Assembly (NCBI RefSeq): GCF_023091865.1 | Contig: NZ_JAHXDI010000001.1 | Span: forward strand, 1,116,001-1,180,000 | Length of the DNA stretch: 64,000 nt | Direction of reading: 5' to 3' | From: Chromohalobacter moromii | GTDB taxonomy: Bacteria; Pseudomonadota; Gammaproteobacteria; Pseudomonadales; Halomonadaceae | Shown: positions 36,466 through 37,402 of the stretch, in pieces | Position numbering within the stretch: position 1 is the stretch's first letter | Layout: each line of letters starts with the position of its first letter | Made by a program: the position numbers and the translations under genes | Notes under the pieces: generated by a model | Seen by the model: the letters and a program-made list of their open reading frames with translations, nothing else | The model's database searches: none | Told to the model about the DNA's origin: nothing

Positions 36466-37326
36466 CTATCGGTAGCGATAGACCCTCAGGCTGGGCAGGA
36501 AGGGCGTGTCCTCGAGTTTCGTGTCGGCGCGTTGGGCGCGGGTGCGCGTGCTGGGTGGTGTCGCCTTCGGGGTGTTGTGCGAAGGCAGGCGACCGTCCTC
36601 GCTGGGAATGAAGAGAGGTAACGGCAGATTCATGGCACGTCGCATGCGCCCATCCGCGAGCGCTTCGCGAAAGAACAGATTGGCGCGCATGACGGGGGCC
36701 TGGGTTTGTACCTGTGCCAATGGCTCGCTATCGGGGATGTCCGCCAAGTGACGTAGCTGAATGCGAATGTGCGGACTCTCGGTATCCATTTCCATAAGTC
36801 GCCGTTCGGCATCTCGCACGCTCAGTCGCTTGATGGAGCGCCCGCTGGTATACCAAGCGAGACGCACACGCGAAAGCGGTGCATCCGCCACGGGTAAGTG
36901 GCGCCAGCATTGCTTGAGGTGTAGACGCGCCAAGCCTTGGCCGCGTAGATGGTCGTGTAGCGTGGGATGGCGAAAGGGTAGTACGGCCTTGATTTCGGGG
37001 AGCAGGCTCGGTGCATCCTGACGAATCTCGGCCAGTGTCGCCGCGAAGGTTTGCTTGGCGTGATTGATGTCGGCGACGTAGGCCAGCAATGTGGAGTCGG
37101 CCGCAATCAGGCCGATGTAATTGCGCGTCGCGCGACCGTCCTGGCCGTCTTGATACCAGAAGTCGAGCAGTGCATGGCGTAGCCACGCGATATCGAAAGG
37201 GATACCGCCCAGTATCCAGCCCTTCGGAGGCATGTGTTCGACATGGCCGATGAGTGCCTCGCAGGTTTCGATGACATGATCGAAGTCATGCTCGAGCCGA
37301 GCCAAGAGGTGATATTGCCGCTCCAT
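36466..37326 (-). CDS. tus: Tus-family DNA replication terminus site-binding protein
   Basis: A 286-residue protein that I align by eye to E. coli Tus along most of its length. Matching stretches: ADINHAKQTF with Tus INKLKTTF; LHLKQCWRHLPVADAP then VRLAWYTSGRSIKRLSVRDA with Tus LNAYRTLTVLHDP and FGWANKHIIKNLHRDE; and a C-terminal LPSLRVYRY with Tus IPRLHLYVA. H124 and G129 in LHDHLRG fall on Tus H144 and G149, residues of the strand-locking pocket. Tus binds Ter sites and blocks replisomes from one side. About 20 residues after the N-terminal helix are missing relative to Tus, and a Pro/Arg-rich linker is present near 255-270. No ribosome-binding site precedes the ATG. Confidence 0.72.
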   Translation of the reverse strand: MERQYHLLARLEHDFDHVIETCEALIGHVEHMPPKGWILGGIPFDIAWLRHALLDFWYQDGQDGRATRNYIGLIAADSTLLAYVADINHAKQTFAATLAEIRQDAPSLLPEIKAVLPFRHPTLHDHLRGQGLARLHLKQCWRHLPVADAPLSRVRLAWYTSGRSIKRLSVRDAERRLMEMDTESPHIRIQLRHLADIPDSEPLAQVQTQAPVMRANLFFREALADGRMRRAMNLPLPLFIPSEDGRLPSHNTPKATPPSTRTRAQRADTKLEDTPFLPSLRVYRYR

Positions 37327-37338
37327 ATTTATACCGTT

Positions 37339-37402
37339 ATCTAAAGTCTATTGGCCACATAATGGCAAGCCTGGTGCGTCTTCGCAAGTATGCCTGGCAT
37401 AC
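37339..37402 (-). promoter_or_regulatory. Upstream region of the tus-like gene: promoter-like elements and a dyad
   Basis: On the minus strand TTGCCA (5 of 6 to TTGACA) is followed after 17 bases by TTTAGAT, close enough to the ATG that the transcript would have a very short leader. Further up, GTATGCC-T-GGCATAC (37388-37402) is a perfect 15-base palindrome. The -10 region contains ACTTTAGATA, 9 of 10 bases like the outer end of E. coli TerB, but the GTTGTA core is not next to it. All of this is suggestive only. Confidence 0.3.

Follow-up and report, generated by a model that had tools for sequence, protein, structure and literature searches.

A very probable Tus-Ter fork trap, with a Ter sequence of its own, resident in the Halomonadaceae

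In the Tus-Ter fork trap of Escherichia coli, the cytosine pocket of the lock is made by residues I79, F140, H144, and G149 of Tus, and Tus represses itself. Bases 6 and 8-18 of the E. coli ter sites are conserved and bases 1-5, 7, and 19-23 variable, according to a passage in PMC8347550, and the GC(6) pair is described as the pair opened in the Tus-Ter lock in an excerpt of PMC8707476. Taken together, the ter positions given in part of PMC10331603 and the placement of dif between terA and terC in an excerpt of PMC8347550 put TerB to the right of dif and pointing outward. A survey based on the PF05472 profile (Galli 2019, PMC6549158) reports, in the sections available, resident tus genes in most Enterobacterales, in Aeromonadales, and in Pseudoalteromonas chromosome 2 only, and in these sections as well as in passages of PMC10331603 resident tus is regarded as recently domesticated from plasmids. 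The string 'Halomon' is absent from the text of that survey; the available portion of Toft 2021 (PMC8707476) speaks of Enterobacterales and contains 'Halomon' and 'Oceanospirill' zero times, and a paper on Azotobacter (PMC4465626) contains both 'terminus site-binding protein' and 'Halomonas'. Among the titles, abstracts, and term counts of the open-licence literature, we found no description of a halomonad fork trap.

We analyzed a window, by which we mean the whole stretch of 64,000 nucleotides of Chromohalobacter moromii DNA, with a focus on the following two features:

36466..37326, minus strand: tus-like gene, 286 aa, ATG start, encoding a putative replication terminator protein (open reading frame, hhalign, Foldseek, and orthologues)
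37328..37343, minus strand: Ter-like site TAGATAACGGTATAAA, just upstream of the tus ATG, with G6 at 37341, position 7 at 37340, and the core (positions 8-18) at 37339-37329

A preliminary description of this DNA had taken it to be that of a probable halomonad, and the nearest named relatives of the window protein are indeed from Chromohalobacter (up to 98% identity). The tus-like gene is flanked on one side by genes for an NAD-binding oxidoreductase, ApbE, and a pyridine nucleotide-disulphide oxidoreductase and by a YrhK-like gene, and on the other side by genes for a carbon-nitrogen hydrolase, a PAD_porph protein of the agmatine-deiminase type, an FtsX-type permease, and an ABC ATPase.

The description had also claimed likeness to Tus over most of the length of the protein and had proposed a PF05472 search and a comparison of predicted fold as checks, of which the former failed and the latter bore the claim out. 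Specifically, the window protein matched no Pfam family at E ≤ 10, PF05472 included, and no NCBIfam family; a PF05472 search of its own genome returned no match while the E. coli control was positive; HMMER detected PF05472 in 0/32 Halomonadaceae members; PDB sequences gave no Tus match with either the single window protein or two profiles; and aligning a shallow profile by hhalign with just the one Tus of E. coli gave a probability of 0.3%. When a profile of 29 relatives was aligned with six Tus proteins, hhalign returned a probability of 98.4% and an E-value of 5.1e-15 over 224 columns, covering residues 10-251 of 285 of the window protein. In the AlphaFold2 model (pLDDT 79, pTM 0.74, weak stretches at 59-65 and 263-266), Foldseek found four matches in the PDB at E ≤ 0.001, and all four are E. 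coli Tus; among them is 1ecr_A (E 3e-11, probability 1.00, TM 0.58, rmsd 7.7), and identity to E. coli Tus in the structural alignment is ~15%. Because two relatives pass the PF05472 cut-off of 22 bits, i.e. L173, which is 43% identical to the window protein (23.5 bits), and L195 from a Pseudomonas mendocina plasmid, which is linked to the window protein at E 1e-3 (27.2 bits), relatives bridge the gap between the window protein and Tus; among the wider relatives, 5/29 match PF05472 at E ≤ 1. We conclude that the window protein is a member of the Tus family, with its kinship set by profile-profile comparison and predicted fold, and that it is a very distant cousin of E. coli Tus, too diverged for PF05472. 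The negative direct searches alone would have led to a wrong rejection of this kinship and, because PF05472 misses the tested Halomonadaceae proteins, the profile behind the Galli 2019 statement on most orders has a blind spot.

Two equivalents of lock residues had been named beforehand, and the hhalign alignment of the 29 relatives with six Tus proteins does pair H144 with H124 and G149 with G131 of the window protein (numbered with Met1), while in the same alignment I79 is paired with Tyr (Y58) and F140 with His (H120). The pairing of G149 is alignment-dependent, its position being occupied by Arg in the alignment behind a 61-protein tree; within one set of 32 sequences the H144 equivalent does not vary, but it is His in only 13/16 Halomonadaceae of the tree alignment and mostly other residues outside this family. 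As judged from these alignments, the lock-pocket residues appear to be kept in part only.

The candidate cognate site of this protein, G-N-TAACGGTATAA, spans positions 37329-37341 of the window, and a scan of the window allowing up to three mismatches to AAGATAACGGTATAAA returned the Ter-like site as its single match, with 0.07 expected. Its core stops two bases before the tus ATG, which points to a wrongly set start or, alternatively, to overlap of the ribosome site with Ter; no sigma-70 promoter or terminator was called at this site. The stretches upstream of tus represent several different genomic contexts among the relatives and, by eye, no likeness between genera was seen there apart from one short element. 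Tus-Ter traps have a Ter before tus; here, exact TAACGGTATAA lies on the coding strand 16-45 bp before the start of the match in 38/80 loci of relatives from named genomes, and the window is alike in kind. No further exact copy was found elsewhere in these 80 loci. The remaining 42 loci, mostly from Halomonas, Billgrantia, Litchfieldella, and Onishia, are without an exact site before tus. In loci from other families (L157-L174), 8/18 have an exact copy just upstream of the gene. Pieces of nine plasmids of relatives contained no site within three mismatches of the 16-base consensus, and the 8.8 kb scanned of the L194 plasmid likewise contained nothing within three mismatches.

Beyond the core, 53 distinct sites reveal the geometry of the candidate Ter. 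In a logo of these sites, from which 12 sites from families f8 and f16 and genus g4 were left out and in which conservation within the 11-mer is there by construction of the search, G occupies the second base before the core in 51/53; position 7 varies (A 43, G 5, T 3, C 2); the two bases preceding the G and the one following the core are commonly A; and the outer bases carry little information. The resulting consensus is AAG-N-TAACGGTATAA-A. In register with TerB, the new site has G6, G13, T14, and A15 in common, and the E. coli Ter core is otherwise not matched.

We found dif once in each of 29 single-contig Halomonadaceae chromosomes, and the exact 11-mer is present in 27 of them with 145 copies in 11 genera, of which 144 are listed (one G124 site was counted but not listed); G030 and G079 have no exact site. 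All 144 listed sites, which are not independent because related genomes have sites in common by descent, point away from dif, i.e. they are on the minus strand to its left and on the plus strand to its right; owing to this dependence, the binomial p-value calculated for the polarity is too small. Based on chromosome sizes mostly rounded to 0.1 Mb, 127/144 lie within 10% of the chromosome length from dif, and the median distance is 77 kb. The reversed 11-mer, used as a control, has 36 copies, of which 17 are concordant and seven near dif. The innermost opposed sites enclose dif in all 26 chromosomes that have sites on both sides and are 58-158 kb apart (median 78 kb). The motif was also recovered without prior knowledge: a search for over-represented oriented motifs in the terminus half had been proposed, and a blind search for words of 10 to 12 bases with several outward copies and no inward copy within ~200 kb of dif, performed on G093 (a complete Chromohalobacter) and G101 (another genus), placed this motif at the top for k=11 and k=12 and in second place for k=10. 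In the near-dif stretches of these two genomes, all ten matches to AAGATAACGGTATAAA with zero or one mismatch are outward, none has two mismatches, and those with three or four are split into 13 outward and 12 inward. GC skew changes sign at dif, and the distance from dnaA to dif is 0.48-0.50 of the chromosome in G093, G101, and G321. The tus gene, too, is directed away from dif, both in the 27 chromosomes with exact sites and, by coordinates, in G030 and G079; its distance from dif is usually 80-375 kb and about 1-1.7 Mb in the genomes of genus g6 and in G023.

Since the complete chromosomes that contain sites have them oriented on either side of dif, the suggestion that this lineage runs its own trap gains support, and we consider it very probable that a Tus-Ter fork trap, with a Ter that differs in sequence, is resident in the Halomonadaceae. 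A move of the protein to another role, also contemplated at the outset, is possible but not the simplest reading. The protein might also bind the sites in order to regulate genes locally or to organise the terminus, having lost fork arrest, in agreement with the partial conservation of the lock pocket and with the number of exact sites, which reaches 12 in the G090 chromosome. Nevertheless, the sites are strictly polar to the left and right of dif, a feature that an arrest system requires and that a plain repressor could do without, and we regard this possibility as very improbable.

KOPS and matS are signals of the translocase-guiding and segregation kind. The oriented motif could belong to another terminus system of this kind with the Tus-like protein serving another function, given that binding of the motif by the protein is putative and that 42/80 loci are without an exact site before tus. 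Four observations argue against this: the exact motif lies before tus in 38/80 loci and nowhere else in them; it clusters near dif and does not cover the replichores; length, G6, and orientation are common to the motif and E. coli Ter; and genus g4 shows no excess of the motif. In the six g4 genomes, all drafts and five of them without a tus match, we counted 1, 1, 1, 1, 3, and 1 exact sites (the 3 in the genome with a weak match) compared to 1, 4, 4, 1, 3, and 9 for the reversed control. The lack of an excess in a genus almost without tus counts in favor of a Tus-Ter pairing, and we regard another terminus system as very improbable.

The window's own genome has six exact sites, i.e. the window site, C1:1302387(-), C1:1393362(-), C4:451295(-), C4:503796(-), and C4:566701(+). 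With dif at C4:519714, 3/3 sites within contig C4 fit the polarity and, judging from the complete relative G093, C1 would join C4 such that the C1 minus sites fit too. On the G093 chromosome, ~370 kb separate dif from the tus-side Ter, and no exact site on that side lies further out. Genus g6 has few or no exact sites and instead one-mismatch variants such as GATAACGGGATAA; in four g6 genomes, 36/37 sites (three of the 37 being exact sites already counted) are concordant, and because the reversed pattern is commoner (53), so that site number is not above control, polarity alone speaks there.

Five genomes of three other families share the polarity, on fewer sites. G321 (f37) has four minus sites to the left and three plus sites to the right of dif; in G223 (f38, eight sites), G386 and G155 (f6, five each), and G197 (f6, two), all minus sites precede all plus sites, and dif was not found by pattern in these four genomes. 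Because the site counts compared to control (7 to 5, 8 to 11, 5 to 8, 5 to 2, and 2 to 0) are at or near control, the evidence in these families is weaker and consists of polarity only. Families f8 and f16 show no excess of the TAACGGTATAA motif. In f8, whose tus proteins are 26-30% identical, no upstream footprint was visible and repeats dominated the output of the blind k-mer search. Separately, GAGCATGCCTTT occurs within 200 kb of dif 31 times outward and zero times inward in the f8 genome G329 (L320-L339), and three times in G349; it is probably a repeat. In f16, an element TTGRTAACGRYTTATTAAGTG lies upstream of tus in 6/6 loci (L238-L243) and is possibly a third Ter dialect; a long pattern found few sites beyond the tus ones, with two opposed copies in G290, making the f16 trap a lead only.

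With respect to origin, the preliminary description took the position of the gene to fit acquisition, a view that the distribution does not bear out. At a threshold of E ≤ 0.001, the tus-like gene is present in 145/151 genomes of the Halomonadaceae; it went unmatched in five g4 genomes and one 77%-complete genome, and the sixth g4 genome (G067) was scored as a match at 8.7e-4 only. In an order-wide sample, relatives match at E ≤ 1e-4 in 69/293 genomes, 12 of them Halomonadaceae, and in 38/118 genera. In the tree of 61 proteins, in which several deep branches are weakly supported, the 16 chromosomal Halomonadaceae proteins form one clade with a support of 0.999. In PMC6549158, resident tus is recognized by a distribution congruent with species and by conservation of the genomic context; the former corresponds to the 145/151 genomes and the single clade found here, the latter from the gene tree alone. 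That tus came from a plasmid not long ago and has no trap on the chromosome would be in keeping with relatives on 35 plasmid records, of which three are from Halomonas; no relatives were found in the phages searched. The presence of the gene in 145/151 genomes, the single clade, within which the two sampled Halomonas plasmid copies are nested, and the existence of polar chromosomal sites all speak against it, and distribution and tree together argue strongly against a recent plasmid origin in the Halomonadaceae, which we find hardly credible. Recent acquisition of the tus-like gene is thus not supported.

Three further observations concern individual copies of the gene. The whole genus g4 (G004, G028, G044, G056, and G078, with G067 a weak match) seems to have lost tus. 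In G015, the tus copy at C1:3012212-3013056 has internal stops and is spread over two frames, reflecting either recent decay or sequencing error, while 11 concordant exact sites remain. The plasmid copies L194 and L340 from Halomonas, both named terminus site-binding proteins by automatic annotation, are 54% identical halomonad tus copies next to a site-specific integrase on one plasmid and a DNA-binding protein on the other.

In our working model of the Halomonadaceae fork trap, the Tus-family protein would bind asymmetrically to Ter sites of the form AAG-N-TAACGGTATAA-A flanking dif, and each bound Ter would act as a one-way barrier. Forks from oriC would run through the sites of their own half and across the dif region before stopping at the first site on the far side, which has its G6 end facing dif and at which the bound protein would arrest the DnaB helicase. 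Because Ter abuts the tus start in Chromohalobacter, the protein probably also represses its own gene, as E. coli Tus does. That this protein binds the sites, arrests DnaB, represses itself, and uses any C6 lock is what we infer from the arrangement of gene and sites. Counting against a trap are the 42/80 loci without an exact site, the 1-1.7 Mb between tus and dif in g6 and G023, and the pocket changes, as well as the site numbers in g6 and in other families that are not above control and the PF05472 result of 0/32 with HMMER. More tentatively, and with a likelihood that we place somewhat short of even, the Halomonadaceae together with at least three other families may represent a second deep, vertically inherited Tus-Ter branch in which Ter shifted together with the protein while its geometry (G6, a loose position 7, and a core at 8-18) stayed fixed. 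Because the pocket residues differ, such a branch may hold C6 by other residues or arrest forks without the lock of E. coli.

The name of the protein is not new, as it exists in the automatic annotation of plasmid copies; the Ter and the trap appear to be. A different Ter combined with changed pocket residues provides a natural test of what a fork lock requires, the apparent loss in g4 is a natural experiment on what traps are for, and the Halomonadaceae system could serve as an orthogonal polar barrier. If the second branch is real, chromosomal traps would be more than a narrow speciality of enterobacteria and would not go back to a recent domestication.

Compared to described systems, the probable Halomonadaceae trap resembles that of RTP in Bacillus subtilis, which is polar and in which the terminator gene has a terminator site in its promoter (as described in a passage of PMC10331603), whereas RTP, according to the same passage, is an unrelated protein that contacts two half-sites as a dimer, and it is absent among the fold matches listed. 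The Tus-like proteins of Halomonas, Vibrio, Marinobacter, and Pseudomonas plasmids are homologous and some are auto-annotated as 'DNA replication terminus site-binding protein'; the Halomonadaceae gene differs in being chromosomal and family-wide, and the nine plasmid pieces scanned had no consensus-like site. As in the type II trap, as defined in an excerpt of PMC8707476, the tus-side Ter is not the innermost site. The closest counterpart is Tus-Ter of E. coli (PF05472; PDB 1ECR and 4XR0-4XR2). Like it, the Halomonadaceae system has the predicted Tus fold, a Ter that reads on the tus strand immediately before the gene (TerB there and the window site here), and sites to the left and right of dif that turn their G6 end towards it, with G6 kept and position 7 loose. 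Unlike it, the protein is only ~15% identical and aligns Tyr and His with I79 and F140, the tus-side Ter in the Chromohalobacter genome G093 is the outermost exact site on its own side, and the Ter core is TAACGGTATAA, which beyond G6 agrees with TerB at G13, T14, and A15.
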